Source: Blattamonas nauphoetae (taxonomy: Eukaryota; Preaxostyla; Oxymonadida). From it: a stretch of 64,000 nt of DNA. Shown piece after piece: positions 148 to 64,000 of this stretch (position 1 is the first letter of the stretch; the number at the start of each line of letters is the position of its first letter). The stretch lies in NCBI GenBank assembly GCA_033064195.1, contig JARBJD010000092.1, positions 178,459 to 242,458 on the forward strand, in the 5' to 3' direction. The notes beneath the pieces were generated by a model. The model was not told where the DNA came from. It ran no database searches and saw nothing but the letters and a program-made list of their open reading frames with translations. The position numbers and the translations under genes are program-made.

Positions 148-977
148 TCACAACTTGATGAGATATAGACGGAATGCTTGATGAGATATAGTCGGCCCCG
201 TTCGTTGATTGTGTTGATGTGAGGATGCGATTTGATTTGCCCTCAATTTTTCATTTTCGGATTGGTGTTCTTTGTCGTCGGCGTCTTTCAGTCTCCAAAG
301 TGCTGATATCGTGTTCACAAGACAACGAAACACTCCAAATGAACACAATTGGGAACTCGTCACTCGAGTTTCTGGGTTCTGAACAGAAAACCAAAAAAAA
401 GCATGAAGAAGACGAAGGAAGGAAGGAATCATGAAGAAATAAGGATGAAGAGATGAATCAAACCGGATCCAACATGCGAATCAGAAGCGCTCGTTCTTCC
501 TCCCCACAACTCGTCCCAATCATCGACACGCGGAACGACGAGATCTCTTGACCCAGTTTTAGAAGCGATTTGCTCTTGAAAGGCGGTTCTCCAAACAGAA
601 GCCAGTGAAGAACAATCCCCAACGCCCACACATCCGATGAGCACGTCGCCCTTCCTGTTTCTGATTCCATTCGTTCTGGCGACACATACAGTTTGGACAT
701 CACTGAGCGCGTACTGCTCCCATCTTCCGATTCCGCTGCCCCCAAATCACCTAAACTCCAAAAAAACCGCATTAATCACAATAATGATAATGAAAGAATG
801 AAAAATTGGATAAGGCGAAGGAAAGATGAGAAAACAGAAATGAAGGAAAGAATAGGCTGAAGTGAAGGGAAAGAAAGACAAACAGAGTTTGAAGTGTCCT
901 CCCGGGCAGAGAAGAATGTTTTCCATCTTCACATCTCCGTGTGCTGTTGCTCCGCCTTCGTGGTTGTGCATCAAGTT
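148..977 (-). CDS. Protein kinase, C-terminal half of a gene split by transposons
   Basis: Seen: three exons on the minus strand, 977-884, 750-464 and 378-148, separated by GT-AG introns 751-883 (133 nt) and 379-463 (85 nt). They encode the catalytic loop HGDVKMEN (HRD with Gly for Arg; Asp and Asn kept), KLCDLG (DFG with Leu for Phe; the Cys codon spans the intron), the activation-segment end YVSPE, DVWALG, and the final arginine in NPETRV. The other half lies at 15167-15683. Joining both halves plus one TA gives exactly 981 nt, that is 326 codons and a stop. Family knowledge: a Ser/Thr-type protein kinase with an intact lysine, glutamate and both aspartates should be able to transfer phosphate from ATP. 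Inference: at this allele the gene cannot make the normal protein because 14.2 kb sits after codon 123. I cannot place it in a named kinase subfamily. Confidence 0.85.
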
Positions 978-979
978 TA

Positions 980-1242
980 TAGTAGTGTCACCAATTAGTC
1001 CGGTGTCACTAATTCGGCATTTTCTTTGAAACGATAGAGGATGTGGTGAATATGAACTGTGTGAAATGATAGAGTTAAAAAAGTCCTCCTTCCCGAGAAA
1101 AACCTGCTAAACTGGTTGTGTGTTCAGTTTATGGGTCAGATCAAAAATCATCGGGAAAAAGAAGGAAGATTGGCTCTTAAAGATTGGATATTATGCACAA
1201 TGTGAATTCAACCTAACTATCTTCTATGATTTCAACACAATT
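980..1242 (+). repeat. Left terminal inverted repeat of the pogo-like element
   Basis: Matches 11053-11315 in reverse complement over 263 bases. Identity stops at base 1243. A short open frame starting MFSLWVRSK lies in it and therefore also in the right copy; it looks incidental. Confidence 0.95.
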
Positions 1243-1301
1243 CCTGTAACTTTTTACAATTTATGTGCTAAAACTGAGATAAAGGGTGGATTCTTCATCA
1301 A

Positions 1302-4300
1302 ATGTCTGGTATATGTGATTTAGACGAATTTTCGTCTGAATATCTCTTGAGCAGTCCAATTGTCAAGAAGAAAAGACTGCACTCATTAATTCCTTCAGAT
1401 GAAGCGAAGCGAAAGAAAGAAAAGCGGAGGGTCAAAGCAATCAAGGAAGGACGTGTTCCAGGGATAATTGGGAACCCACGGTATCTGACCCCCAAGAAGA
1501 AGAAATACTTTTAGATGCAATAAGAAGAAGAGAATTCAACGAGAAGTGTCCGTCATATAATAAAGTTAGAAAATTGGTATCTTTTTCTCGATTGAACTGA
1601 ATTATAGGCGTTTCGAATTCGACTCCGAAGGGGATTGTCTCAATCTGTTCTGAAATACCCGTGTAGAACGTGGGTATATCGTTTTCTCAAGAGACACACA
1701 TCCGTACACTCCATCCTGCCAACTCCTGTGGATGAGGCACGGTTCAAAGCCTCCACACTCCAACATATCCTTCCTTTTCTCCGCAAACTACTCAAACTCG
1801 TTGAGATCCATCAGTACCATCCAGACCTAATCTTACAGCTTGACGAAACGAGCCTCCAATCCAAAGCCTTTCGTCCCTCCAAATGCATAGGGACAACCAG
1901 TAGGGGGAAGTACTATGTCATGGAGACAAAACCGATTTCAAAATGACAGCGTTATTTGTGTGTGCCGCTTCTGGTCGACACTACAAGACTCATCTTCTCT
2001 TTCCACAAAACATGACTCTTCCCCGACTTTCAGACTACAAGTATTCTATATACACAGTCACCAAAACGCAACGTGGCTGGATGACGAAACCTGTATTTGC
2101 AGACATAGTGATGAACCAATTGGTACCAGAGATAGAGAAAGTCCGGCAAGACCACATTCGAGAGCGAGAAGAATACCATCAGAAATTGGAACAAGAGAAG
2201 GCCAGCCCGAAGAAACGCAGTCCAAAGAAGCTAAGCGAGGCACGATCTGAAACAGAAGCCAGGGAAAGCGATGACGCATGGCTAGAAGGAATTAAGCGCG
2301 GAGTATCGACGAACAACAAAAGGTTAGGAGGCGATCCACAGCGAACGGTGATGATGGGAGGCGAAGCACAGCGAACAGTGATGATGGGAGGCGAAGCACA
2401 GCGAACGAACGCGATGGGAGGCGATGCACAACGATTCGGGATGATGGGAGGCGAAGCAGAGCGAACGGTGATGATGGGAATCGAAGCAGAGCGAACAGTG
2501 ATGATGGGAGGCGAAGCAGAGCGAACAGTGATGATGGGAATCGAAGCACAGCGAACGAACGCGATGGGAGGCGATGCACAACGATTCGGGATGATGGGAG
2601 GCGAAGCAGAGCGAACGGTGATGATGGGAATCGAAGCAGAGCGAACAGTGATGATGGGAGGCGAAGCAGAGCGAACAGTGATGATGGGAATCGAAGCACA
2701 GCGAACGAACGCGATGGGAGGCGATGCACAACGATTCGGGATGATGGGAGGCGATGCACAGCGAACGAACGTGATGGGAGGCGAAGCAGAGCGAACAGTG
2801 ATGATGGGAATCGAAGCACAGCGAACAGTGATGATGGGAGGCGAAGCAGAGCGAACAGTGATGATGGGAATCGAAGCAGAGCGAACGGTGATGATGGGAA
2901 TCGAAGCAGAGCGAACAGTGATGATGGGAGGCGAAGCAGAGCGAACAGTGATGATGGGAATCGAAGCACAGCGAACGAACGTGATGGGAGGCGATGCACA
3001 ACGATTCGGGATGATGGGAGGCGATGCACAACGAACGAACGCGATGGGAGGCGATGCACAACGATTCGGGATGATGGGAGGCGATGCACAGCGAACGAAC
3101 GTGATGGGAGGCGAAGCAGAGCGAACAGTGATGATGGGAATCGAAGCACAGCGAACAGTGATGATGGGAGGCGAAGCAGAGCGAACAGTGATGATGGGAA
3201 TCGAAGCACAGCGAACGAACGCGATGGGAGGCGATGCACAACGATTCGGGATGATGGGAGGCGAAGCAGAGCGAACGGTGATGATGGGAATCGAAGCAGA
3301 GCGAACAGTGATGATGGGAGGCGAAGCAGAGCGAACAGTGATGATGGGAATCGAAGCACAGCGAACGAACGCGATGGGAGGCGATGCACAACGATTCGGG
3401 ATGATGGGAGGCGAAGCAGAGCGAACGGTGATGATGGGAATCGAAGCAGAGCGAACAGTGATGATGGGAGGCGAAGCAGAGCGAACAGTGATGATGGGAA
3501 TCGAAGCACAGCGAACGAACGTGATGGGAGGCGATGCACAACGATTCGGGATGATGGGAGGCGATGCACAGCGAACGAACGTGATGGGAGGCGAAGCAGA
3601 GCGAACGGTGATGATGGGAATCGAAGCAGAGCGAACGGTGATGATGGGAATCGAAGCAGAGCGAACAGTGATGATGGGAGGCGAAGCAGAGCGAACAGTG
3701 ATGATGGGAATCGAAGCACAGCGAACGAACGTGATGGGAGGCGATGCACAACGATTCGGGATGATGGGAGGCGATGCACAACGAACGAACGCGATGGGAG
3801 GCGATGCACAACGATTCGGGATGATGGGAGGCGATGCACAGCGAACGAACGTGATGGGAGGCGAAGCAGAGCGAACAGTGATGATGGGAATCGAAGCACA
3901 GCGAACGAACGCGATGGGAGGCGATGCACAACGATTCGGGATGATGGGAGGCGATGCACAGCGAACGAACGTGATGGGAGGCGAAGCAGAGCGAACAGTG
4001 ATGATGGGAATCGAAGCACAGCGAACGAACGCGATGGGAGGCGATGCACAACGATTCGGGATGATGGGAGGCGATGCACAGCGAACGAACGTGATGGGAG
4101 GCGAAGCAGAGCGAACAGTGATGATGGGAGGCGAAGCAGAGCGAACAGTGATGATGGGAGGCGAAGCAGAGCGAATGGTGATGATGGGAGGCGAAGCAGA
4201 GCGAACGGTGATGATGGGAGGCGATGCACAGCGAACGAACGTGATGGGAGGCGAAGCAGAGCAAACAATGATGATGGGAATCGAAGCACAGCGAACGAAC

Positions 4301-5428
4301 GTGATGGGAGGTGATGCACAACGAATGGAAGTGATCACAAATGATTCACTGCGACTGGGAGGCGATGGGATGCAAGTAGCGGCGATGTGTAGCGATCAGA
4401 CGAAATTGGGGACGATGAGAGCTGCAACTGAGCGTGCTCTCATCATTCTAGATGGCCACGTCTCACGTTCGCAACCTGACCTTATGTCGTGGCTTGCTGC
4501 ACATCAAATTGATGTTATAGTTCTCCCCTCTCACACTTCGGAGTTCCTTCAGCCATTGGATCAAGTTGTGAACAAAGAGTGGAAGAAAGCACTCAAGTCT
4601 GTCAGTATGCCGAAGGACAAGAACGACCAATCACAACTGAACCAATTTATGAATAAGATTGATGGGGCGGTGACAAGAGCTCTCCAAGCTGACTACATCC
4701 GGAAAGGATTCGAGAAGTGTGGTCTCATCCTTAGGTCTCCCACAAAAATGCTGATGAGTCTACGAAATGTGGGGCAGACCTTTGAAGAGTGGAAACAGAC
4801 AAACACTCTTCAAAAAAAAGTAGATGACGAGTTGAATGTGAACTCAGATGACGGACTTGACTGTAACTGGAAGAACCAAATCAAAGGGGACCATCTCGAT
4901 GAATGGGAATCGTTTACTGTAGAAAACGACAACTCGATCCCACCTTTGAAGCCCTCTGCATCGTTTCCGATCAGTGGGCATGTATTATCAGATCCATACT
5001 TCCTCCATCGTTGGTTCGAGCACAACGCTGCCCAAAAACGGGTTGAAGAGGAGAGGGAAGTCGCTCGCCGCGCCAGAAATGAACGGAGGAGAGCGGCAAC
5101 GTTTAGGAAGCTTGAGAAGCTCCAAGGAAAACAAGTGAGAAGACCCCCTCAACATGTGTCGCGAGAATTAAGAGTGATTCATGATGACAGCAGCGAGTCT
5201 TCAATTAGCCTCGGCCATGACGAAGAGTTCGATGATGTGGCCTTCATTCATGATCCGAATGAGAGTGATGATGACGATTCACTGTCTGAGTTAACCGATG
5301 GGAGCGTTTCGGAATCTATTTCAAATCATCTCAATCATCTCATGTCAGCAATCCACGGACGACTTCCTGGGAAAGGAATACTCGTCCTCCAAGCTCATTC
5401 AAACACAGACGCAAGTTCCCACCAGTAG
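1302..5428 (+). pseudogene. pogo-type DDE transposase with internal repeat, frame-broken
   Basis: Seen: an N-terminal CENP-B-like DNA-binding region (LTPQEEEILLDAIRRR, then W..RFLKRH) split by a 31-nt GT-AG intron (1577-1607) whose removal restores the frame; first catalytic aspartate in QLDETSL (about 1841-1861); a 2-kb repeat of 10-residue units (2326-4325); then LILDGH-type second aspartate and QPLDQ third aspartate, 35 residues apart; and a charged acidic/basic tail. Family knowledge: pogo/Tigger transposases use a DDE triad for cut-and-paste at TA. Two single-base losses break the frame: in a C run near 1490 (the frame otherwise stops at 1514) and in an A run near 1940. The 1161-codon stretch from 1943 is open. 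Either the gene is dead, or the breaks are base-calling errors in homopolymers. Confidence 0.8.
2326..4325 (+). repeat. 30-bp coding tandem repeat, about 66 copies
   Basis: Seen: units of the type GTGATGATGGGAGGCGAAGC plus ten further bases, coding V-M-M-G-G-E-A-E-R-T and variants (N-A/V-M-G-G-D-A-Q-R and F-G-M-M-G-G). All units are exactly 30 bp, with no length change over 2 kb. A 150-bp higher-order block (five units) recurs several times. The array lies between the first and second catalytic aspartates of the transposase. All three minus-strand frames are also open through it, so minus-strand reading frames here are artefacts of the repeat. Confidence 0.95.
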
Positions 5429-6018
5429 GATATCGAATGACAGTCTCCGAGGACCACAGCAAAACTTTGTGGTTGATGCTGGGGGGATGATCCTTCTGGA
5501 TTCCGACAGCGATTGATTTCGTACATCTCTCTCCTTCTCCTCATCAAATGCTTCCTCCTCAAACTCCGCATGTTGCTCTCTTCTTCGTCTCTTCCGATTT
5601 GAATGGAGCATTTGGCAGACTAGTCATGAGGTCAGAACATCGAACACCCGTTCAGCAGACTGGTTCTAATCTCCAATGTTGTTCTCGCTCTCAAACTCGG
5701 ACTCAGTCTCGAGCGACTGTCGTCAACAGCTGTGATGCAGATGAAGATCCTGTCTCCTGACTCGCGAATATCATGAACTATCATCTCCTCATCTGGTTCA
5801 GAAAGGAACAAAACCTCGATCACCTTGAGATTGTGGGGCAGGAGGAACGGCGACTGCATGTTGTTCGAGTTGGAGGTGTCACCGGCAATGGAGAAGAAAG
5901 TGGTCATCGAGTGAGATATGGTGTTTGGACAAACTCACTATTGATCACACAGCGGATTAAGGACTGACAACGAGGAAGAAAGTTGATAAAATCCACTGGA
6001 ATCAGAAGCTGCACCATG
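5429..6018. other. Non-coding part of the pogo-like element
   Basis: No convincing coding region. The sequence sits between the transposase stop and the mariner insertion at TA 6019-6020. I see no repeat or RNA gene here. Confidence 0.5.
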
Positions 6019-6020
6019 TA

Positions 6021-7629
6021 CAGGGTGGTCACCCAAAACTTGGTCGGGGTGACACTTCTTGGAACATGCTATTCCTAAGTCATTTCACTTGAATTTAGAT
6101 GAGATACCTCATTTTGTCTTTGGTTAACTCGTCGAATCCGAGTGTCACACATCTGAATCTCGAGAATGAGATGGGTGAGAGATGTCTCGACAGAAGAACT
6201 TTCCGAAAAAGTGATAAAAACTTATACAAACACAAAAACTTGTATCTGAGTGTATTCCAATCCTGTTCAGAAATGTTGTCAGAACAAAACAGTTCCTGGG
6301 GTGAGAAAAACTAAAAAATGACTTTGATGGTCAAAATGAGTGTGCTATTGATAAAATTTGGTCAACCAAATCAAAAATTCCAGAATACAACAAAAGTTGA
6401 GAAAGAGTACAAAATGCGACGGTTAGATGTACTCGCCTTGATTCTGAATTACCAGTTCACAGCGTCTGATCCAGTTTTCGAATACTCGGATTCTTTTTGC
6501 GGTGGTTTGCTCTGCCATGAATGAATCGATGTGTTTTTTGAGTTCTTCGTCTGATTTGACTGTGATACCTTTCAGGCGCATCTTCATTTCTCCAAACAGC
6601 CAGAAATCGCACGGGGCGAGATCTGGACTGTAAGGAGGATGAGAAATTTTGGAAAATAGAGAAGTCTCGAGAAATGTACGGACCAGCTTGGAGTTGTGGC
6701 AGGGCGCATTGTCCATATGAAGATACCGGACAAAATCGTTGATGTCAAATGTGTCTTGCAAAAGAATCTCTGTTTCCATTTCGTCCAAAATCTCGTTCAC
6801 GAACACTTGAGCAGTAATTCCTTTCCCTCTGGGGATCATTCGAAGGAAAGTGAAATCAATTCCAAAAAACGCCACCAACATCGTCTTCCCGCTGCCGATG
6901 TTGATTCGCTCTCTCACCGGTCGAGGGTCGTTTGGGTGAAGCCAAACGAAAGAATGAGGGTTTGTCCATTTGATCCAACTCTCATCTCCCGTGATCAGAT
7001 ACTTCCATCCTTTTCGTTTCTCTTTGTTGAGAGTGAGTAGTAGATCCTGTGCCAGCTGAATGCGATTGGTTTTTTGAGAGTCTGTCAGAAGATGAGGGAC
7101 CCATCTAGTGTAGCGTCGGACTAAGCCAAAATGTCCGAGAAGACATTTTTGATTGTTTGTGGATGAAAACCAGTAATTCTCCACATCGCTCGCAGAGATA
7201 ATGAAGTGTCTTCAGCTAAAATTTGAGAAAGGGCGTTGATTAGAGTGAGGTTGCTTCTGACGTGATTGGGAACCTTTCCAGTAACTGAAAAGTGCCGTTC
7301 TCCAAGTCCTTCATAACTTTTCTGCAGGTTTCCAAGCACGGTTTATCGTCTGGGTAGTAGGATGCAAGCAGAGAATGAGCTTCTTTGTAATGAAGCTGCA
7401 TTCTCCAGCAAAATTCTATTAAAGTCCGATCTCGAATACGAAATTCAGTTGAGGACATATGATGGGAAGGATCAAACCACAAAAGTCTAAGTTGAACCAT
7501 TTTTTTCAAAAAAATGAAAAACAAGCATAGAATGCAAAATGATGAAATGAACAGTCACAAAAAGAATCAAACCATGATTCCTGTTGAAACGCGAGAAAAT
7601 GTCCGACCAAGTTTTGGGTGACCACCCTG
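6021..7629 (-). mobile_element. mariner element (DD34D), 1.6 kb, degenerate
   Basis: Seen: 27-bp perfect terminal inverted repeats beginning CAGGGTGGTCACCCAAAACT at 6021-6047 and 7603-7629, flanked by TA at 6019-6020 and 7630-7631. It encodes one transposase on the minus strand. Size, TA target and the DD34D motif fit the mariner family of Tc1/mariner. It is inserted in the non-coding part of the larger pogo-like element, so it arrived later than that element formed. Confidence 0.9.
6423..7500 (-). pseudogene. mariner transposase, DD34D, frameshifted
   Basis: Seen: N-terminal helix-turn-helix region (RTLIEFCWRMQLHYKEAH), the linker motif WVPHLLTD, catalytic aspartates in GDESWI, HMDNAPCHNS and PYSPDLAPCDFWLF (34 residues between the second and third). 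The ATG may be at 7500 or 7458. The reading frame shifts at least twice, near 7290 and near 7150-7185, so the three frames together give a full-length mariner transposase of about 350 residues but none alone does. All three catalytic aspartates survive. This copy would need help from an intact transposase to move. Confidence 0.88.
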
Positions 7630-7762
7630 TATACGTTCAATTGACTACAATCCACTCACCCAGAAGTAGTTCACATTCGGGCTGTCGCTGGGCACTGATG
7701 CGAGTTTTTCGAATGTTCTTGTCGCTTATGCCAGGAGGGGCCTCGCATAATGGAAGTTTGAT

Positions 7763-10700
7763 GCCTCCTCCCCTCATCCGCATCGCAGAATTGATCGTTG
7801 TCCCTCCTCCCCTCATCCGCATCGCACAAATCAGGTTTGTTCCCTCCTCCCCTCATCCGCATCGCAGAAATCAGGTTTGCTCCCTCCTCCCCTCATCCGC
7901 ATCGCAGAATTGATCGTTGTCCCTCCTCCCCTCATCCGCATCGCACAAATCAGGTTTGTTCCCTCCTCCCCTCATCCGCATCGCAGAAATCTTGTTTGTT
8001 CCCTCCTCCCCTCATCCGCATCGCAGAAATCAGGTTTGTTCCCTCCTCCATTCATCTGCATCGCGGAATTGATCGTTGTCCCTCCTCCCCTCATCCGCAT
8101 CGCAGAAAACTTGTTTGTTCCCTCCTCCCCTCATCCGCATCGCAGAAATCAGGTTTGCTCCTCCTCCCCTCATCCGCATCGCAGAAAACTTGTTTGTTCC
8201 CTCCTCCCCTCATCCGCATCGCAGAAATCAGGTTTGCTCCCTCCTCCCCTCATCCGCATCGCAGAAATCAGGTTTGCTCCCTCCTCCCCTCATCCGCATC
8301 GCAGAATTGATCGTTGTCCCTCCTCCCCTCATCCGCATCGCACAAATCAGGTTTGTTCCCTCCTCCCCTCATCCGCATCGCAGAAATCTTGTTTGTTCCC
8401 TCCTCCCCTCATCCGCATCGCAGAAATCAGGTTTGCTCCCTCCTCCTCTCATCCGCATCGCAGAAATCAGGTTTGCTCCCTCCTCCTCTCATCCGCATCG
8501 CAGAAAACTTGTTTGTTCCCTCCTCCCCTCATCCGCATCGCAGAAAACTTGTTTGTTCCCTCCTCCCCTCATCCGCATCGCAGAAAACTTGTTTGTTCCC
8601 TCCTCCTCTCATCCGCATCGCAGAAATCAGGTTTGCTCCCTCCTCCCCTCATCCGCATCGCAGAAATCTGGTTTGTTCCCTCCTCCTCTCATCCGCATCG
8701 CAGAAATCAGGTTTGCTCCCTCCTCCCCTCATCCGCATCGCAGAAAACTTGTTTGCTCCCTCCTCCCCTCATCCGCATCGCAGAAATCAGGTTTGCTCCC
8801 TCCTCCCCTCATCCGCATCGCAGAAATCAGGTTTGCTCCCTCCTCCCTCATCCGCATCGCAGAATTGATCGTTGTCCCTCCTCCCCTCATCCGCATCGCA
8901 CAAATCAGGTTTGCTCCCTCCTCCCCTCATCCGCATCGGAGAAATCAGGTTTGTTCCCTCCTCCCCTCATCCGCATCGCAGAATTGATCGTTGTCCCTCC
9001 TCCCCTCATCCGCATCGCACAAATCAGGTTTGTTCCCTCCTCCCCTCATCCGCATCGCAGAAATCTTGTTTGTTCCCTCCTCCCCTCATCCGCATCGCAG
9101 AAATCTTGTTTGTTCCCTCCTCCCCTCATCCGCATCGCAGAAATCAGGTTTGTTCCCTCCTCCCCTCATCCGCATCGGAGAAATCAGGTTTGTTCCCTCC
9201 TCCCCTCATCCGCATCGCAGAAATCTTGTTTGTTCCCTCCTCCCCTCATCCGCATCGCAGAAATCTTGTTTGTTCCCTCCTCCCCTCATCCGCATCGCAG
9301 AAATCAGGTTTGCTCCCTCCTCCCCTCATCCGCATCGCAGAAATCAGGTTTGCTCCCTCCTCCCCTCATCCGCATCGCAGAATTGATCGTTGTCCCTCCT
9401 CCCCTCATCCGCATCGCACAAATCAGGTTTGTTCCCTCCTCCTCTCATCCGCATCGCAGAAATCAGGTTTGCTCCCTCCTCCTCTCATCCGCATCGCAGA
9501 AAACTTGTTTGTTCCCTCCTCCCCTCATCCGCATCGCAGAAAACTTGTTTGTTCCCTCCTCCCCTCATCCGCATCGCAGAAATCAGGTTTGCTCCCTCCT
9601 CCCCTCATCCGCATCGCAGAAATCAGGTTTGCTCCCTCCTCCCCTCATCCGCATCGCAGACAACTTGTTTGTTCCCTCCTCCCCTCATCCGCATCGCAGA
9701 AATCAGGTTTGTTCCCTCCTCCATTCATCCGCATCGCAGAATTGATCGTTGTCCCTTCTCCCCTCATCCGCATCGCAGAAAACTTGTTTGTTCCCTCCTC
9801 CCCTCATCCGCATCGCAGAAATCAGGTTTGTTCCCTCCTCCCCTTATCCGCATCGCAGAAATCTTGTTTGTTCCTCCTCCCTCATCCGCATCGCAGAATT
9901 GATCGTTGTCCCTCCTCCCCTCATCCGCATCGCAGAAATCTTGTTTGCTCCCTCCTCCCCTCATCCGCATCGCAGAAATCAGGTTTACTCCCTCCTCCCC
10001 TCATCCGCATCGCAGAATTGATCGTTGTCCCTCCTCCCCTCATCCGCATCGCAGAAATCAGGTTTGCTCCCTCCTCCCCTCATCCGCATCGCAGAAATCA
10101 GGTTTGCTCCCTCCTCCCCTCAACCGCATCGCAGAATTGATCGTTGTCCCTCCTCCCCTCATCCGCATCGCAGAAATCAGGTTTGTTCCCTCCTCCTCTC
10201 ATCCGCATCGCAGAAATCTTGTTTGTTCCCTCCTCCCCTCATCCGCATCGCAGAAGACTTGTTTGTTCCCTCCTTCCCTCATCCGCATCGCAGAAATCAG
10301 GTTTGCTCCCTCCTCCTCTCATCCGCATCGCAGAAATCTTGTTTGTTCCCTGCTCCCCTCATCCGCATCGCAGAAATCAGGTTTGCTCCCTCCTCCCCTC
10401 ATCCGCATCGCAGAAGACTTGTTTGTTCCCTCCTCCCCTCATCCGCATCGCAGAAATCAGGTTTGCTCCCTCCTCCCCTCATCCGCATCGCAGAAGACTT
10501 GTTTGTTCCCTCCTTCCCTCATCCGCATCGCAGAATTGATCGTTGTCCCTCCTCCCCTCATCCGCATCGCAGAAATCAGGTTTGTTCCCTCCTCCCCTCA
10601 TCCGCATCGCAGAAATCTTGTTTGTTCCCTCCTCCCCTCATCCGCATCGCAGAAATCAGGTTTCCTCCCTCCTCCCCTCATCCGCATCGCACAAATCAGG

Positions 10701-10770
10701 TTTGTTCCCTCCTCCCCCATCCGCATCGCACAAATCAGGTTTGTTCCCTCCTCCCCTCATCCGCATCGCT
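7763..10770. repeat. 39/40-bp minisatellite, about 75 copies
   Basis: Seen: a constant core TCCTCCCCTCATCCGCATCG followed by one of a few variable segments: AGAAATCAGGTTTGCTCCC, AGAAATCTTGTTTGTTCCC, AGAAAACTTGTTTGTTCCC, AGAATTGATCGTTGTCCC (39-bp unit), or CACAAATCAGG. Degenerate units run on to about 10810. Occasional single-base losses shift the phase. All frames are mostly open because the unit lacks stop codons; I do not read these as genes. It lies inside the pogo-like element, between the mariner copy and the right inverted repeat. Confidence 0.95.
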
Positions 10771-11052
10771 GGAATCTTCTTTCTTCCCTCCCTTCCTTAT
10801 CCGCCTCGCCAGATTAAAGTTTGTTCCCGAACTGACCTCCATCACCTCCCTCCTCTGCTCTCCTCCCAAACCTTCCCCAGATCAAATCCACTGCTGAGCC
10901 ATGTTTCGGCAATCCGTTTCATCTTGATCCATCGTGTCAATCTGACACTTGACTTGATTGACATGTGCCGAGATCAAGCTCATTCCCTGTGTCGCTGGAT
11001 TCATTTTGATGGTTCCTGATCGATGTTCCCATTTTTGAATATCATTTCTCAA

Positions 11053-11315
11053 AATTGTGTTGAAATCATAGAAGATAGTTAGGTTGAATTCACATTGTGC
11101 ATAATATCCAATCTTTAAGAGCCAATCTTCCTTCTTTTTCCCGATGATTTTTGATCTGACCCATAAACTGAACACACAACCAGTTTAGCAGGTTTTTCTC
11201 GGGAAGGAGGACTTTTTTAACTCTATCATTTCACACAGTTCATATTCACCACATCCTCTATCGTTTCAAAGAAAATGCCGAATTAGTGACACCGGACTAA
11301 TTGGTGACACTACTA
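11053..11315 (-). repeat. Right terminal inverted repeat of the pogo-like element
   Basis: Reverse complement of 980-1242. It ends at the TA (11314-11315) that also borders the next element, which begins at 11316. Confidence 0.95.
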
Positions 11316-11350
11316 CAGGGTGTCTCAGAAGTTGTCTAACTCTATGGGTT
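11316..11350 (+). repeat. Left inverted repeat of the DD41D element
   Basis: Pairs with 15132-15166 (reverse complement) with two mismatches in 35 bases. Confidence 0.9.
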
Positions 11351-11494
11351 AGATCAGCATTTCTCGTCAATCTCAAATACGGTTCATTGATGTATTTCTT
11401 TTTCCTGAATGATTGTGATGATGATTTTAGGAACATCCCCCGTCGCTTGTAAAACACTACAGACATGACTACAGCTTACGAACTCCGCAACTAA

Positions 11495-12544
11495 ATGAGA
11501 CGCTCAACCAAAGACAGGATCCGGATTGTGCAAGACTACTATCGTTTTCGGAGCGCTTTTGCAGTGATTAGGCGCTGGAATCGACCCGATCCACCGTGTT
11601 CTCAAACCATCAAAAATATCATCAGTCGCTTCGAAGCGACTGGAACGGTTGCAGATCTTCCTCGATCTGGTCGCAACGTTACCACATCGACCCCAGAGAA
11701 CCGTAGAGCCGTTGATCGACATTTTAGTAACCATCCAACGCAGTCCATACGCAAAGCCTCACGTGATCTCTGTATCCACAGATCCTCGGTTCATAGGATG
11801 GTCCAAGATTTAGGATTGCATGCCTATCGATTACAACACACACATTGGTTATATGATCAAGACTATTTGGAGCGACGAAGGTTTTCGGAGTGGATAACGG
11901 CTGAATGTCAACGGGACGCAACTTTTCTCGATAAAATTTGGTTTTCGGATGAGTCAAGATACACTCTCGATCAAACCATAAACACTCATAACTCGTATTA
12001 TCGCGCCCGGGAGAATCCTCACTTCCATGTTGAGGTTCCCCACTCGAAACTTGGGGTGAACGTATGGTGCGCTATTTCTTCGCAAGGAATTATTGGGCCT
12101 GTGTTTTACGAAGGGATGATGACGGCCGAAAAGTACCGACTCATGCTTGACTCAATTTTTTTCCCAGAGAGAAGATTGATCGATCAGGCAGGAACCACTT
12201 GGTTCCAACAAGACGGGGCGCCTGCTCATACTGCCCATGATACTGTTGAGTTTCTCACAACGAGACTTGGGACGCAGTGGATTGGTAAGAATGGCCCACA
12301 TCAGTGGCCGGCAAGGAGTCCAGACCTCACTCCTTGCGACTTTTGGCTTTGGAGTGCCATCGCCGAGCGAGTCTTTCCTGCAGATCCGAGAAGTGTAGCA
12401 CAATTGAAGGAGTTGATTCAAGATGCAATCGCAGCTCTTCCTCTGGATGAGATCAAGAAAGCTTGTCGTAACGTGGTTCACCGTTGCAACACCTGCATTC
12501 AGAGAGAAGGAAACTCTGTAGTAGGCATGGCTGACCGGCACTGA
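11495..12544 (+). CDS. Tc1/mariner-type transposase, DD41D
   Basis: Seen: one uninterrupted 349-codon frame from ATG. An N-terminal helix-turn-helix region (residues about 5-110, with GRNVTTSTPENRR between the two halves) is followed by catalytic aspartates in IWFSDESRY, FQQDGAPAHT and SPDLTPCDFW; 41 residues separate the second and third. Family knowledge: such enzymes cut and paste their element at TA. The hAT element entered at CTCTGTAG (12514-12521), three codons before the original stop: the sequence past the right duplication (15055 on) would end the protein with Glu-Ile-stop, whereas the present frame reads seven residues into the hAT end. The catalytic core is complete, so the enzyme may still be functional. 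Confidence 0.9.
   Translation: MRRSTKDRIRIVQDYYRFRSAFAVIRRWNRPDPPCSQTIKNIISRFEATGTVADLPRSGRNVTTSTPENRRAVDRHFSNHPTQSIRKASRDLCIHRSSVHRMVQDLGLHAYRLQHTHWLYDQDYLERRRFSEWITAECQRDATFLDKIWFSDESRYTLDQTINTHNSYYRARENPHFHVEVPHSKLGVNVWCAISSQGIIGPVFYEGMMTAEKYRLMLDSIFFPERRLIDQAGTTWFQQDGAPAHTAHDTVEFLTTRLGTQWIGKNGPHQWPARSPDLTPCDFWLWSAIAERVFPADPRSVAQLKELIQDAIAALPLDEIKKACRNVVHRCNTCIQREGNSVVGMADRH
12514..12521. repeat. 8-bp target-site duplication, left copy
   Basis: CTCTGTAG, repeated at 15047-15054 directly outside the other end of the hAT-like element. Confidence 0.9.
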
Positions 12545-15046
12545 CCGGTCAGTTTTCATCGAAAAGTACTGACGGTCACTGACCGGAGAAATATCGGAAC
12601 CCATAATCGAGATTTACCATTTCTCCGAGGTGGCTTTTATAGAAACCGAAATTCGAATCAATTACACGATTATTCACATTATTACCTCGAATTGACCATT
12701 ATTGAATCATTATCACTTCAATGAAGCAGTTTCACTCACATTTTAAGACATTTCTTGCCGGAACGATCTCAAAAACAGTAATGGGCATCTGATCGATTGA
12801 GATTCCGGACACATCAATTCGTTTTATTTAAACATGTCATCAATATGAAAGTTATATTTGGAATATTTCTTGAAATTTGACTTATATTGTTTTGAAGTCT
12901 CCCAAGAGTCAAAGAATGTAATTTTGTTTGAACCAAATCAACCGTGAGATCGCTCGATTTAGGCATGATAATGTTCATCTAATTCTCTCAGTGATTTCTG
13001 AAAAGGTCCAAAAATGAAGAAAAATACGAATATGACTCTCCAAATGTCACTTTATCTTTGAAACACTTTCTGTCTCCTTCCTTCTCATCTCAAACCTCGA
13101 GATCGCAGCTTCTCCTCCAAAACGAACGCAACATGATGGATTACATCCTCCCACACGTGAAAACTCAGTCCAAAAGGCGGTTCTTCGTTTTCAATCAGTT
13201 CGGCATCAACATCTTTCGGGCTTTCCAATTCTATCTAGAAAGTGATTGAATTTCGGATCCTGTGAACAGCATCTAATGATGCAAGCGAAAGAAATGATGT
13301 TTTGCCTGTTCCACTCAGCGGAGACTGTTGTGGGAACGGTTCGAAACTTTCAGGGACGGACAACTCTGTCTTTGGAGTGGAGAGATTCTGAGTTGTGAAA
13401 TATGGGCTTGAAGCATCCTCGATGCGAGTTGGGAGGGTGGGCGAGAGTGCGCTTGTTTCGAAATGCGGTTTGTTCAAGTTTTTCCATTTTCTGATTGAGG
13501 CGGATGGTTGGGAGAGAGAAATGACCACTCCAAGCTCTGTCACATTCAAAAGGGCTTCTGTTTCTTGATTTTGTTGTGGGGTGGTGTGGTTTTCTCCATC
13601 ATCGGGTAAATTTGGGGATCCAACATTCTCACTTTTCCACTCTCGTAATCCAGAAACTAAATGAAGAAACACCTCGTCAATCCGCTTCCGTTGCTTCTGT
13701 TCCACAGTCGTAAGTGATTTCTTGTCTGGGCGGGCTGTTTTCGATTGTTCCTTCGCTTCGTGATCAAGAACCCGCGCTCGCTCCATTCTTCGCTTCTCGA
13801 TGGTTTCAGATTCACGATAAAGGCGAGCTGTGAGAGAGTCGATTCTGTTTTGTTCCAATGTCACTTTCTTTGGTGATATTTCGTCTGAAGGGAGCACAAT
13901 TCGCTTTCGAAATGTTGTTTTCGGCTCTTCCTTCTCGTCGTGTTCGTTGTCCAACCGTTCTTTCCGATTTTTCTTGGTTACTTCAAGGTACTTCTGTTGT
14001 GCGATTTCTTTTTCCATCTTTTCAGTTAATTCCTGCGAGATTTGTGTGGTGTCGTTCATCCGATCTGAAGAGTGTGCACTTCGAATGGTCCTTCCTCCAA
14101 CATGTGATGAACCTCGTAAAGAATCTTTGAATTGTGGAGTATCTTCTTCGAGGGCCGATTGTGATTCCTTCCTCTTCATCGCGTCTTTATACAGTCTCGT
14201 GGTAACGGACTCGTCTTCTTCAGCAAGTGTTCGACGAGTACTTGTGAGATTTTGGCTCTTTTTTGCGAATTGTCGGATGGAAAGTGCATTCGGAATGCGG
14301 CGGCTGATCGTCGGTTTCTCCATACACCCTTCCTTCCACAACATGTCTCGGTTCTGCAAGCTGCTTATAATGTACGTAGTTTCGTCGTTTGGCGTCTTCA
14401 TACAGTTTGTTCACAATCTTTGTCTTTTCCTTTTCTGTTATCTGTTTTGTTTTTGGAGTTTCGTTCTTCTCTTTTTCTCTCGCTGCTTGTTGTCTCTTGT
14501 CTCTGATTTCTTCTCCTTGTCGTGTCAGTCGTTCGATTTTGTCGGGATTGGAGGCAGTGGTGGCGTGAATGGATTGATGATGTCTGCGCCAGCGTCGGGT
14601 TGTTGGAGCGGCTTTTGAGGAAGAGGAGCATCAGATTCGGAGTCTTCTTCAACTTCCTCTTCTTCAAAGCTCTCATCTTCCTCTTCCCATTCTGATTCTT
14701 CTTCTTCTTCAGTTTGAAGGAATTGTTGATGCATTGCGGTTACTTGGGAAACAAGATGGGAGTACACAGTGTTTGGCAAATTATATTTGTCGCAGAATGC
14801 ATGACAAACAGCCTCCTCTTCCTTGTTCTCATAAAACTGAAGTGTGAAGAGAGGCTGACGAAAAAGAGAAACATACAAAGAGGGTTGCCTTCTCACCACG
14901 AATTTGAAGTTAATCTGAACATGAATCTCAGCAATTTTGTCATATTCTTGATTAAAACATGCAATTTACAAATCAAGAGAGATCTGACCCTTATACGAAT
15001 TCTGAGGTGACACTGACCGGCACTTTTGGCCGGTCAGCCATGCCTA
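12522..15046. mobile_element. Non-autonomous hAT-like element carrying a gene fragment
   Basis: Seen: inverted ends sharing TAGGCATGGCTGACCGGC (18 bp) at 12522 and, reversed, at 15029-15046, with subterminal CCGGTCAG motifs, flanked by a perfect 8-bp duplication CTCTGTAG. Eight-base duplications are typical of hAT transposons. There is no transposase inside; the interior holds part of another gene (13235-14955). About 690 bases on the left (12545-13234) have no recognisable content. Confidence 0.82.
13235..14955 (-). pseudogene. Captured gene fragment, LYxDAxxR-repeat protein
   Basis: Seen: on the minus strand, a region like EIHVQINFKF, then a likely 44-nt GT-AG intron (14855-14898), LFTLQFYENKEEEAV and FCDKYNLP, an acidic stretch, a basic helical stretch, and repeated motifs KLYEDAKRR, RLYKDAMKRK and RLYRESETIEKRR. 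The frame changes near 14545 and near 14330, so it is not a working gene. It begins without a start codon close to the hAT right end. Such motifs occur in protist proteins linked to cilia or cytoskeleton; I cannot name the family with certainty. Retention of an intron means DNA-level capture rather than copying from mRNA. Confidence 0.6.
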
Positions 15047-15054
15047 CTCTGTAG
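15047..15054. repeat. 8-bp target-site duplication, right copy
   Basis: CTCTGTAG, matching 12514-12521. The DD41D transposase reading frame continues from here for two codons and a stop. Confidence 0.9.
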
Positions 15055-15131
15055 AGATCTAGACTTGACGTACGTTTCATTTCACTTTATTTTGTTGAGT
15101 TTCATCACTTTTTTACAAAAATGTTGCGATC

Positions 15132-15166
15132 AACCCATTGAGTCAGACAACTTCTGAGACACCCTG
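15132..15166 (-). repeat. Right inverted repeat of the DD41D element
   Basis: Pairs with 11316-11350. The TA that follows (15167-15168) is the second base pair copy of the kinase target site. Confidence 0.9.
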
Positions 15167-15683
15167 TATTAGCGCGGATGAAACATCCATCATCACACGA
15201 TATGCAATCTGAAAACCAAGAAAAACAAATAAAATAACACAAGAAAAAGAATGAATGCACCAAGAATAAACAAAAAATCAAGAATAGCAGAAAATCGAAC
15301 AAACATCGCGAGGCATCAAATCTCTCCTTTCTGTGTAGTCTTTCATCATCCCCGCAAGTGACTGCCCTCCCAACTCCATCAAAATCACTTTCATATTCCC
15401 CATCGATGCCACTTCTTTCAGTCCAACAATTCCCGGATGATCGAATTTTCGAAGTCGATTAACTTCACGATTAATTCGTTCCTTGTCTTTTGCTGTCACA
15501 CACGGTATCATCTTTCCTGCATAATGTTCCTGAGTTGAATTCTCAATCAATTCCACAACACTTCCGAAGCCTCCAGAGCTGATCTCTCGAACGAATGAAT
15601 CTACACAACAAAACAACATGGGTCATCAATGAATGGCGGGAAAAGAACATACATCCTTCGGGAACTTCGACAACAGTCGTCAT
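15167..15683 (-). CDS. Protein kinase, N-terminal half of a gene split by transposons
   Basis: Seen: exons 15683-15653, 15600-15305 and 15208-15167, with GT-AG introns 15601-15652 (52 nt) and 15209-15304 (96 nt). The ATG at 15683 is chosen because splicing then gives a frame that meets the C-terminal half exactly; an in-frame stop lies further upstream. The protein shows a glycine-rich loop (SSGGFGSV, residues 18-25), the ATP-binding lysine in YAGKM (Lys40), the helix-C glutamate in INREVNRL (Glu56), then helix E. The last codon ATA (123) is completed by the TA target site, and AAC at 977-975 follows on the other side of the insertion. A short kinase of this kind has little outside the catalytic domain, about 60 residues after the NPETR arginine. 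No regulatory domain is visible. Confidence 0.85.
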
Positions 15684-16365: not shown

Positions 16366-19300
16366 CTACGCTTCAGGCTCCTTCATTTCCGGACCAGAGC
16401 CAATCCGAGTGTCTTCCGGATGAGAAGACAGGAATTCCTCAATTTCAGAAAGCGTCGGGCGCTCCTCAGGATCAACTGACACACAGCGATGGATCAGCGA
16501 CACAAACTCCGAGTTCTGAAGCGACTCCATTTTCGGCCCAACTCCAGTTCCGGACTGACGCTGAGCATTCACTGCATCCAGTTCCCCAAACGGCACTTGA
16601 CCTGTCTCAATTTCCCACAACAGCAGGCCAAGACTAAAAACTGACGCTTTCGAACCATCAACTTCGCCTCCCTTCGATCCAACAACTTCAGGCGCGCGCC
16701 ATCGAAGACCATCCATTCCTGTTCTGTCTGCGCGACCTCCTTGCGATACCTCATGAGGTTGGGTCTTGTTCTCTTCCAAGTTTGGTTGCGGGTGGTCGTT
16801 TGATTGTGCTCGAGTCGCTTCTTGTTCCGCTTCTTCTGACGTCATTTGAAGTTTCAGTTGAACATTCCCACTTCCGTCAATCACAATCCAGTGAGACGAC
16901 AGACGTGTCAGAACATCACTCCACCCTCGATGACCCACAACATGTTTCAATCCATTCACAATCTGAATCCCAACCGCACGCTTCCCAATAACACGTCGTT
17001 CTTTGTGAAGCACATTGTAAAGCGAACAATCCATTCGAGACCTCGAAATCCCAAAGTCTCCACTGCACGCCATCACTTCCACAAGATCGCCCCCCTTCCG
17101 ACACTCAGAGTTCATCAATTCTGATGTCTCGCTCACTCGCGTCCCACGCGAGTCTGACGTCTCCACAACCGATTCATGATTCGCATCTGTCCGAATCACC
17201 CCATCCGAGAAATGAACTCCAAACTCTTCCACTTTCTCAACATCCAAAGGTTCTTGTGCTTCCATCTCTTTCTGAGCTGGTTCACCATTCTTCTTCTTCT
17301 GTCGTCGTCGAAGCAGAACAATCACAATCACAGCAATGACGACGGTCAGCAGCAGACACGCAACAAGCGGAATCAGCCAGCTCAGAAGAGCCTTCGTTTC
17401 AGGTGACATCCTCTTCTTTGGATCTTCAACCGGATCTGGCGGAGGAACAAACGACGATTCCGGGATGTGGAATGTGATCGTCTCGTTCATACACACAAAC
17501 ATGGTGTCTGTTCCTGGCGTTGGTGTGAACGACTTGATCGTATATGTCGTGTTGTGCGTCAGCACACGATCATCTCCAACAACGACGAACTTCTGGCTAT
17601 CGCCAGCAAGAGCTTCTGTCAAAATCGGCACTGTGATCGTCACATCCTTCCCATCCTCCTCAACAACAATGTCGAACGACCCTTTCACCTTTTCGTCGAA
17701 CACGATGAGAACATGAGCAAACTTCGGTTCGTCGAGAATGAGGCTGGAAGTGGCTGAGATGAAAAAGGGCGGTTTTGGTGTTGTGAATGTGAAGAAGGAT
17801 GTATTTGCAGCGAGGTTGAAGGCCCACGCTGCGACAGGGATTGGGATGTTATTGGAGACAGATGAAGAAGAAGATGGAGGAACAACTCCCACAATCGAAG
17901 TGATTGTGTAGTTCGTGTTGTACTTCAGACTGATTTCTGAATCAGACACAAGAGTTCCTGTCCCATCCAAGAACAACATCCTGAAACTTGTGACTGTTCC
18001 ATTCTCTTCCTCTTTCACTGTCACTTCATACTCCTGTGATGACAGTGGCGTCTTTCCCTTCAACTCCACCCCAATCTTTCCTGTCTTGTCATTCATGGTC
18101 ACAGCTGGTGCAGCTGTCAGAAGCGGACCAATCTTGTCGAACTCGGCATCCAAATGTCGTTCAGTGTCGTACAAACCTGACGAAGGATTTTTAGTTCCTC
18201 TGATGACCATTCCAGATGAGTCAGGACTAACTGTGGAGAAACAGTCTTCAAATGTGAGAGGGGGCAGGTAAGGCGAGGAGAAGCACATGATTGCGACATC
18301 AGGGAACGTGGTTGTATTCTCCGCTAAGGACATGTATTTTTCCATGGACGAGGGGTCTTCGCCAACTGAGTTCCCAACAAACAAAACATCAAAAAAGGAA
18401 AAATTCTCGCCAACGGAATTGCATTCGGTGTAGATGGCGCCAGTGATTCCCGAGGAGCAGTCCTTCACGAGAGTGTCGGAGACGATGAGATCTCTCTGGC
18501 TCACCGAGAAAATCGCGCCTCCAATATGGCTGGACGAGCAGCCGATGAACTCACTCCTCTCCACTTTCATCACTGCTTCCGAAGTCATGTCTAAGCCCGC
18601 CCCGAGTGTGAAGGAAGTGTCGGAGATCGCCTCACAGCGTTCAAATTTCGTGTCGATGACTGACAAACTGAAATATCCAGACATACGAACACCACCTCCA
18701 CGTGACGATGAGCAATCGGCGAAGACACAACCAATCAATTTGAGCAGCTTCGTACTTGGGTCAACATAGCTGCAGTATCCATCCCACCTGAGTCCTCCTC
18801 CTTCAGAATACTCACCAGTTGTCGAGCAGTTCTTGAATCGGCACGAAGTGATGAGAGCTTCGTCCGAAAGAGAAACGTACACCGCTCCGCCAGAACCGGG
18901 TGATGAACAGTTCGTGAAGTTCGAGGAAGTGACTGTGAAGAATGGGGGAGATACGCACTGCCAGGTGCAGACGATATACGCAACTCCACCACCGTACGAC
19001 TCAGGTGAGGAAATGTTGGTGAAGGAGCACGAGAGGATGGAGATCGTGCCTTTGAAGTCGTAGAAAGAGAGTGGGCGATGCTGTTGTGGATACTCGCCCG
19101 CTGTGAAGTGGCAGTGCGAGAAGTTAGCTTGGGAGTCTGATGTCCCAAAATCGGAGTTGTAGTAATATGCCGCGCCATCCATGAATTCCGCTGTGCCGTT
19201 GTAGTCAGGAAGGGTGATTGAAGGTTCTGGGTTGGCAGTGGGCGAGGAGAGGAGGGAGGAGAACGAAGAATTCGAGCACAAAACTGACCCTCCATCGTTC

Positions 19301-46888: not shown

Positions 46889-48049
46889 GCTGTGGATTTT
46901 TCTTTTTCTTGTTTATTCATGTGATATAACCAGTTTTCTGGCCACTATGAGTAAAAATTTTGAATTTAGTCGACATTATCTTTCTTTTCATCGTGAATTT
47001 CCAGCTTTCTGTTTCATTCCTTCCAAATCGAACAATCGTGTGGGCAGGATCAACTTGTTTCTGAAAAGACCATACAAAGGTGTTACGCGGAACTTGAATT
47101 TCAACAGTAACTGAGTTTAAAATCATGAAAGTCCCGAATTAAGTCGTTTCAGAAATGGCAGACAACTGACAGACTTCAACCTCAAGAAATCCAGTTGGAT
47201 GGAGACAAAATTCTTGCTTCCACACTCCACATCGCTTTCTCGTCCTCTCATCGTCGCAGTGTACCCTCAAAGGCTTCAAGACATTCATCATCGAGGATTT
47301 TCGATTCAGAAGGATAGAATGGGGTGATGGAGACAGATGGACGAGATGGGAAGAGCACAAATCGACCGTCGCAAAATGGAGTGACTTAGCCGGATGTATT
47401 CTCCAATCAGCCACTTCACTTCCAATGGATGATTCAAATGAGTGGAAAGAGCAGTTTAATTGAGATGGTGTCGACATTTTGCTTGAGATTCTGAAGCTAG
47501 AGTGTCAACAAAGATGAACAACCGTTTATTCGGAGTATCCGGGTGAATACGTTCCAGACTCATCGATAAATTGACTTTTTGGAACCATATTGTCAATTGT
47601 TTGTTGTTCAAAGGTTGATTAATGGCTAAATGTCACTGTGATCATTCTCCCCACAAAGAGGTTCTTGAACGACATGATTCTTGCATCTATACAGACTTTC
47701 TTTCATGTTTTTAGGAACGAGAAAGAATTCTAGTGAGATTTTCACATCTAGTTCGAGAAGTTTGGGTGTAAGTATCGAAACAATCTGTGTCCATCTTTTT
47801 GACGGATTTCATCCACACCATGTCATTCATGTCGGTTCCTGTCAACAACGCCACTTTATTCTTTGAATGGACTTGACTTTCTTCCGATTTCAGCGGTATT
47901 TACGACTTTCAGGCACGAATTCCAAAACAACGTCATTCGTTGTTCCATACGCAAAGGAAGAAACTATGAAAGATGTTAAACCAATCATGAAATTGAAAAG
48001 AATGAAATTGATGTTGGGCTGCCGGATATGGAAAGTTGGTAGCGTGTCA
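46889..48049. other. Intergenic, about 1.1 kb
   Basis: Open frames exist on both strands at about 47139-47480 (113 codons on the minus strand), but neither shows a domain or support from splice sites. The frame of the next gene is open upstream to an ATG at 47867, but the signal peptide starts at 48050. Confidence 0.4.
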
Positions 48050-61792: not shown

Positions 61793-64000
61793 TCTCCCGA
61801 ATCATCACTCTCGCCCGCATCTCCCCAATCGTCACTCTCGCCCGCTTCTCCCGAATCATCACTCTCGCCCGCATCTCCCGAATCATCACTCTCGCCCGCT
61901 TCTCCCGAATCATCACTCTCGCCCGCTTCTCCCCAATCGTCACTCTCGCCCGCTTCTCCCCAATCGTCACTCTCGCCCGCTTCTCCCCAATCGTCACTCT
62001 CGCCCGCTTCTCCCGAATCATCACTCTCGCCCGCTTCTCCCGAATCATCACTCTCGCCCGCTTCTCCCCAATCGTCACTCTCGCCCGCTTCTCCCGAATC
62101 ATCACTCTCGCCCGCATCTCCCGAATCATCACTCTCGCCCGCTTCTCCCGAATCATCACTCTCGCCCGCTTCTCCCCAATCGTCACTCGCCCGCTTCTCC
62201 CCAATCGTCACTCGCCCGCTTCTCCCCAATCGTCACTCGCCCGCTTCTCCCCGAATCATCACTCTCGCCCGCTTCTCCCCGAATCATCACTCTCGCCCGC
62301 TTCTCCCCAATCGTCACTCGCCCGCTTCTCCCCAATCGTCACTCGCCCGCTTCTCCCCAATCGTCACTCTCGCCCGCTTCTCCCGAATCTTCACTCTCGC
62401 CACTTCTCCCCAATCGTCACTCGCCACTTCTCCCCAATCGTCACTCTCGCCCGCTTCTCCCCAATCGTCACTCTCGCCCGCTTCTCCCGAATCATCACTC
62501 TCGCCCGCTTCTCCCGAATCATCACTCTCGCCCGCTTCTCCCCGAATCATCACTCTCGCCCGCTTCTCCCCGAATCATCACTCTCGCCCGCTTCTCCCCA
62601 ATCGTCACTCTCGCCCGCTTCTCCCCAATCGTCACTCTCGCCCGCTTCTCCCCAATCGTCACTCGCCCGCTTCTCCCCGAATCGTCACTCTCGCCACTTC
62701 TCCCCAATCGTCACTCGCCCGCTTCTCTGATCGTCACTCTCGCCCGCTTCTCCCCAATCGTCACTCTCGCCCGCTTCTCCCAGAATCATCACTCTCGCCC
62801 GCTTCTCCCCGAATCATCACTCTCGCCCGCTTCTCCCAATCGTCACTCGCCCGCTTCTCCCCAATCGTCACTCTCGCCCGCTTCTCCCCAATCGTCACTC
62901 TCGCCCGCTTCTCCCGAATCATCACTCTCGCCACTTCTCCCCAATCGTCACTCTCGCCACTTCTCCCCAATCGTCACTCTCGCCCGCTTCTCCCCAATCG
63001 TCACTCTCGCCCGCTTCTCCCCAATCGTCACTCTCGCCCGCTTCTCCCGAATCATCACTCTCGCCCGCTTCTCCCCAATCGTCACTCGCCCGCTTCTCCC
63101 GAATCATCACTCTCGCCCGCTTCTCCCGAATCATCACTCTCGCCCGCTTCTCCCCAATCGTCACTCTCGCCCGCTTCTCCCCAATCGTCACTCTCGCCCG
63201 CTTCTCCCCAATCGTCACTCTCGCCCGCTTCTCCCCAATCATCACTCTCGCCCACATCTCCCGAATCATCACTCTCGCCCGCTTCTCCCCAATCGTCCTC
63301 TCGCCCGCTTCTCCCCAATCGTCACTCTCGCCCGCTTCTCCCAATCGTCACTCTCGCCCGCTTCTCCCCAATCGTCACTCTCGCCCTTCTCCGAATCATC
63401 ACTCTCGCCCGCATCTCCCGAATCATCACTCTCGCCCGCTTCTCCCCAATCATCACTCTCGCCCGCTTCTCCCCAATCGTCACTCGCCCGCTTCTCCCCA
63501 ATCGTCACTCTCGCCCGCTTCTCCCCAATCATCACTCTCGCCCTTCTCCCTGATCGTCACTCTCGCCCGCTTCTCCCAGATCGTCACTCTCGCCCGCTTC
63601 TCCCCAATCGTCACTCGCCCGCTTCTCCCGAATCCTCCTCGCCCTTCTCCCCGAATCATCACTCTCGCCGCTTCTCCCCAATCGTCACTCTCGCCCGCTT
63701 CTCCCCAATCATCACTCTCGCCCGCTTCCTCCCCGAATCATCACTCTCGCCCGCTTCTCCCCAATCGATCACTCTCGCCCGCTTCTCCCCAATCGTCACT
63801 CTCGCCCGCTTCTCCCCAATCGTCACTCGCCCGCTTCTCCCAATCATCACTCTCGCCCGCTTCTCCCAATCATCACTCTCGCCCGCTTCTCCCAATCATC
63901 ACTCTCGCCCGCTTCTCCCCAATCGTCACTCTCGCCCGCTTCTCCCCAATCGTCACTCTCGCCCGCTTCTCCCCAATCGTCCTCCTCGCCCGCTTCTCCC
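61793..64000. repeat. 27-bp minisatellite, about 80 copies, runs off the window
   Basis: Seen: unit TCACTCTCGCCCGCTTCTCC plus CCAATCG, with a common variant ending CGAATCA. Many units have lost two to four bases (TCACTCGCCCG, CGCCACTTCTCC), and indels become more frequent towards the right end. In one frame it reads S-P-A-S-P-Q-S-S-L, but indels make translation hop between three frames, so constraint on coding is unlikely. It begins inside a coding region. Confidence 0.95.

Follow-up and report, generated by a model that had tools for sequence, protein, structure and literature searches.

Introduction

A 3-bp TNA target-site duplication marks Tc5, a nematode family whose members combine this duplication with a DDE_1 transposase and long terminal inverted repeats. 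In the stretch of 64,000 nucleotides of Blattamonas nauphoetae analysed here (C830:178459-242458, hereafter the window), the element that we call A likewise has a 3-bp TNA duplication, long terminal inverted repeats and a DDE_1 remnant, and with both the duplication and the domain present it behaves, as far as its sequence tells, like a Tc5-like element, although it differs from the family in its size of 10.3 kb, in its 30-nt and 40-nt arrays, one of which lies inside the transposase region, and in its broken transposase frame. Elements of the Tc1/mariner superfamily are described in PMC7325037 as producing a TA duplication, and our elements B and D resemble this superfamily in having a DDE_3 domain, in the shortness of their terminal repeats and in their duplicated TA; the termini of B and D show no notable difference from it, B however being interrupted by a further element, C. 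The latter shares an 8-bp duplication with hAT elements, but the two of its frames that were scanned gave no transposase match, and C, which may be non-autonomous, is therefore not filed as hAT.

The gene hit by these elements encodes a protein kinase. In Monocercomonoides exilis, probably a related species, protein tyrosine kinases overlap unclassified repeats according to PMC8767320, and they likewise form a big diverged family; the solved chains closest to the window kinase are those of PLK2 and calcium-dependent kinases. That cut-and-paste transposons insert in tandem and inside one another is already known, and among the papers listed by a literature search none dealt with Blattamonas transposons.

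Results

The kinase gene and its family

The coding segments of the kinase stand at the two ends of a long insert (Table 1), and a piece of each half matches the Pfam Pkinase profile. The exon borders are backed by an alignment with seven paralogues, and visual inspection showed the catalytic loop HGDVKMEN in the 25 aligned rows of paralogues as well. Where the first-pass annotation had placed the join between two kinase helices, the insertion site aligns instead directly ahead of the catalytic HGD/HRD loop, in a stretch that we take to be helix alpha-E. Genome searches, which covered an assembly of 88,311,006 bases in 837 contigs, revealed many diverged paralogues of this kinase, the 40 candidates scored, out of 293, yielding at least 43 matching stretches.

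A further C-terminal domain, for which there is no Pfam match up to E 0.1, is encoded within the fetched stretch by 17 of the 22 paralogues tested, the sister genes L114 and L118 included (L125, L128 and L129, whose stretches were not extended, were left out of this count). No match to it was found in L006, L112, L113, L115 and L122, nor in the window copy even when 1,353 bp past the window start were included, and the gene can thus not be called complete, as it had been at first. Elsewhere in the window, positions 47270-47434 encode a stretch 40% identical to this domain (tblastn E 4e-06), and the minus strand of 16370-16500 resembles, by eye, the end of another kinase domain.

Table 1. Kinase segments, transposable elements and target-site duplications, with positions counted from the first letter of the window
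Feature	Position	Strand	Evidence or remark
Kinase coding segment 5	148..378	-	Homology to paralogue L003 up to ~241, then unrelated short tail
Kinase coding segment 4, C-lobe	464..750	-	Pkinase E 7.4e-10 for translation
Kinase coding segment 3, 3' part	884..979	-	Holds HGDVKMEN catalytic loop
TTA duplication of element A, left copy	977..979	.	TNA pairs
Element A, Tc5-like	980..11315	+	Identical terminal inverted repeats of 263 bp; remnant of a DDE_1 transposase; two long tandem arrays
Element D, mariner-like, nested in A	6021..7629	-	29-nt inverted repeat; TA at 6019-6020 and 7630-7631
Last two bases of A (TA), target used by B	11314..11315	.	Flank comparison
Element B, Tc1-like	11316..15166	+	Terminal repeats 41 nt at 93%; interrupted by C
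Element C, nested in B	12522..15046	.	Ends TAGGCATGGC...GCCATGCCTA; 8-bp duplication CTCTGTAG at 12514-12521 and 15047-15054
TA duplication of element B, right copy	15167..15168	.	Flank comparison
TTA duplication of element A, right copy	15169..15171	.	Now separated from A by B
Kinase coding segment 3, 5' part	15172..15208	-	Reaches TTA duplication; splice model and TNA pairs
Kinase coding segment 2, N-lobe	15305..15600	-	Pfam Pkinase E 2e-11 for positions 15278-15622
Kinase coding segment 1	15653..15683	-	Start codon at 15683; splice model, paralogue alignment

The inserted elements

Beyond one TTA the insert measures 14,192 bp, which inverted-repeat elements fill. The first-pass annotation had described it as 14.2 kb of nested transposons, but A and B stand in tandem, and nesting applies only to D in A and to C in B. 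The DDE_1 match in A (E 2.8e-10 for positions 4400-5428) spans profile positions 70-152 of 177, whereas the part of the transposase region ahead of the 30-nt array gave no DDE_1 match in a profile search. This array, with 66.6 copies at 2327-4325, shares the open frame 1904-5428 with the DDE_1 part and interrupts the transposase, which is not one intact frame, and a second array at 7756-10828 consists of 77.2 copies of a 40-nt unit. A 27-nt tandem array of 83.2 copies (61793-64000) furthermore runs up to the window end.

The transposase frame of B (11495-12544) matches DDE_3 with E 4e-07, and B is near-identical to copies on contigs C78 and C101, with 1 of 1206 bases differing from the former. 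D matches DDE_3 with E 6.2e-07 and has 19 other copies across its whole length at 97-100% identity, none of the D copies lying inside the six other two-ended copies of A. Four copies of C near full length are found elsewhere at 99-100%, together with two that are split (C28 and C556), and CTCTGTAG is single in the copies of B without C on C78, C101 and C112. The two minus-strand frames of C (391 and 146 aa) lie in 13235-14965, and one of them gives a CCD97-like match below threshold (E 0.004; 17.7 bits, where the cut-off is 27.1), so that C might carry a captured gene.

The duplicated target and the empty site

The insertion had been read as running from TA to TA, but what the first insertion duplicated is TTA. 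Two-ended copies, either of A or of a shorter family resembling it, number 11, and 10 of these are flanked at both ends by an identical TNA with variable N (TAA, TTA, TCA or TGA), the sole mismatch being L013/L026 with TAA against TCA; L015/L024 and L021/L025, both counted in the 10, have their flanks in common and may go back to a single event. When 10 joined flank pairs of A-like copies were compared with retrieved loci, two of the seven alignments displayed were clean, both for the copy on C97, and the two homologues of its flank represent an empty site with a single TTA. Given these pairs and the TTA at either edge of the window's insert, the empty site is predicted to read GTTTAGCG, and the kinase frame becomes 978 nt. 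The six exons joined by the first-pass annotation (minus-strand 15683-15653, 15600-15305, 15208-15169, 979-884, 750-464 and 378-148, dropping 980-15168) do give 981 nt without an internal stop, but this length presupposes a TA duplication, and its three extra bases are missing in all seven aligned paralogues.

With one TTA the spacing at the site matches that of all 52 located paralogue sites (58 were examined and 6 not located). A genome search with the pattern GTGATGN{20,50}GATGCACAAC matched 104 places, and among the 100 listed, which were sorted by hand, all 51 kinase-like places have a spacing of 26 nt, though 20-50 was allowed, while the other 49 comprise 48 in contigs holding A copies and one unrelated place. 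These 48 look like the 30-nt array of A. The exact 30-nt empty site does not occur in the assembly, where nothing lies below 2 mismatches and 19 places lie at 2 or 3 (9 of them at 2 substitutions), and the suggestion that a second intact copy masks the loss is accordingly not supported by the assembly in its narrow sense.

Discussion

We conclude, with a probability of about 0.92, that ordinary DNA transposition disabled a member of the kinase family, A entering exon 3 at TTA and B following. A would have duplicated the TTA on integration, whereupon B would later have used the terminal TA of A, leaving the second TA at its own far end, and D would have entered A, and C entered B, before or after A and B landed. 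That the TTA pair brackets both A and B suggests that A is the older and arrived ahead of B. When reading is continued from the 5' half of the kinase into B, the frame closes after 130 residues, ahead of the catalytic loop, which points to a loss of kinase activity, and the present product is thus probably one of about 130 residues and the locus without an active kinase. A check for splicing of the insert found no AG on the coding strand within the 29 bases that precede the 3' junction.

The version first put forward, in which insertion occurred at TA into a 981-nt kinase with an extra Ile codon, leaving TTTATTAGCG as the empty site, draws on an open frame and on a TA duplication that does exist, at element B. 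It is nevertheless highly improbable, since the duplication in 10 of the 11 relatives of A is TNA, since the extra codon occurs at none of the 52 located paralogue sites (58 examined, 6 missed by the fuzzy pattern) and since TA at 980-981, taken as the duplication of A, would shift the kinase frame to 983 nt. Had A duplicated TA, the site would hold 5 nt more than the paralogues, and a 5-nt excision footprint of an older transposon could then have broken the frame before A landed, but the TNA duplication explains every extra base at the site, and with the TNA pairs and the C97 empty sites leaving no base over, this idea, to which we attach next to no probability, was dropped. An assembly chimera in place of real insertions is likewise very unlikely, for while the interval is packed with repeats and known here from the assembly alone, all four elements have matching duplications at their edges and the copies of B without C show the empty site.

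A more serious alternative, though one we still regard as unlikely, is that the insertions only added to the decay of a kinase copy that was failing or truncated before they landed. The window copy lacks the C-terminal domain that both its sisters possess, and with 12 private changes at conserved positions it ranks first among 25 sequences (1-11 in the paralogues, mean 5.3), so that even before the arrival of A the kinase may have been an unusual or failing one. Of the 25 terminal branches, its own (0.109) ranks fourth in length. The domain is however also missing in 5 of 22 paralogues, the dN/dS of the window kinase, 0.229 as mean dN over mean dS, falls within the range of 0.210-0.313 of 24 paralogues, and the kinase frame holds no stop where roughly 3.7 would be expected without selection on the branch (P ~0.03, a rough figure). 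The evidence on constraint is thus in conflict, the private changes indicating relaxation and dN/dS not, and we have given dN/dS the greater weight.

Returning to inactivation by transposition, the break looks recent, as the first-pass annotation had also proposed, in view of this ordinary dN/dS and of the terminal repeats of A, in which 263 of 263 bases are identical, which bounds their divergence below ~1.1% by the rule of three, but gene conversion can also make terminal repeats identical and could mislead such an age estimate. By comparison, the synonymous distance of the window kinase to its sister genes is 0.449 for L118 and 0.425 for L114.

The window is not unique in having an insertion in this kinase family, since paralogue L004 (C182:81659-85383) is interrupted too: in the same exon, at a distance of ~20 bases from the site hit in the window, two ATAT copies enclose an inverted-repeat insert of 860 bp, which has the ends GGGCGATTCT..AGAATCGCCC. 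Apart from the window's own gene, a search of loci L009-L060 found no kinase beside the A or B copies. At the right ends L016 (C556) and L037 (C323), the TAA duplication of an A or A-like element is directly followed by TAATAGTGG..GTCACC, which resembles the beginning of a further such element. These two ends, together with the position of B in the last TA of A, have led us to the tentative and rather doubtful idea that Tc5-like junctions (CTA|TNA|...) may be favoured landing pads and that tandem stacks such as that of A and B may be recurrent.

As gene biology the case is modest, the gene hit being one among many similar kinases. It does illustrate that assuming the wrong duplication, TA for TNA, yields a plausible yet false reading frame, and it documents apparently recent insertions, by at least one Tc5-like family and at least one Tc1-like family, in the oxymonad protist Blattamonas nauphoetae.
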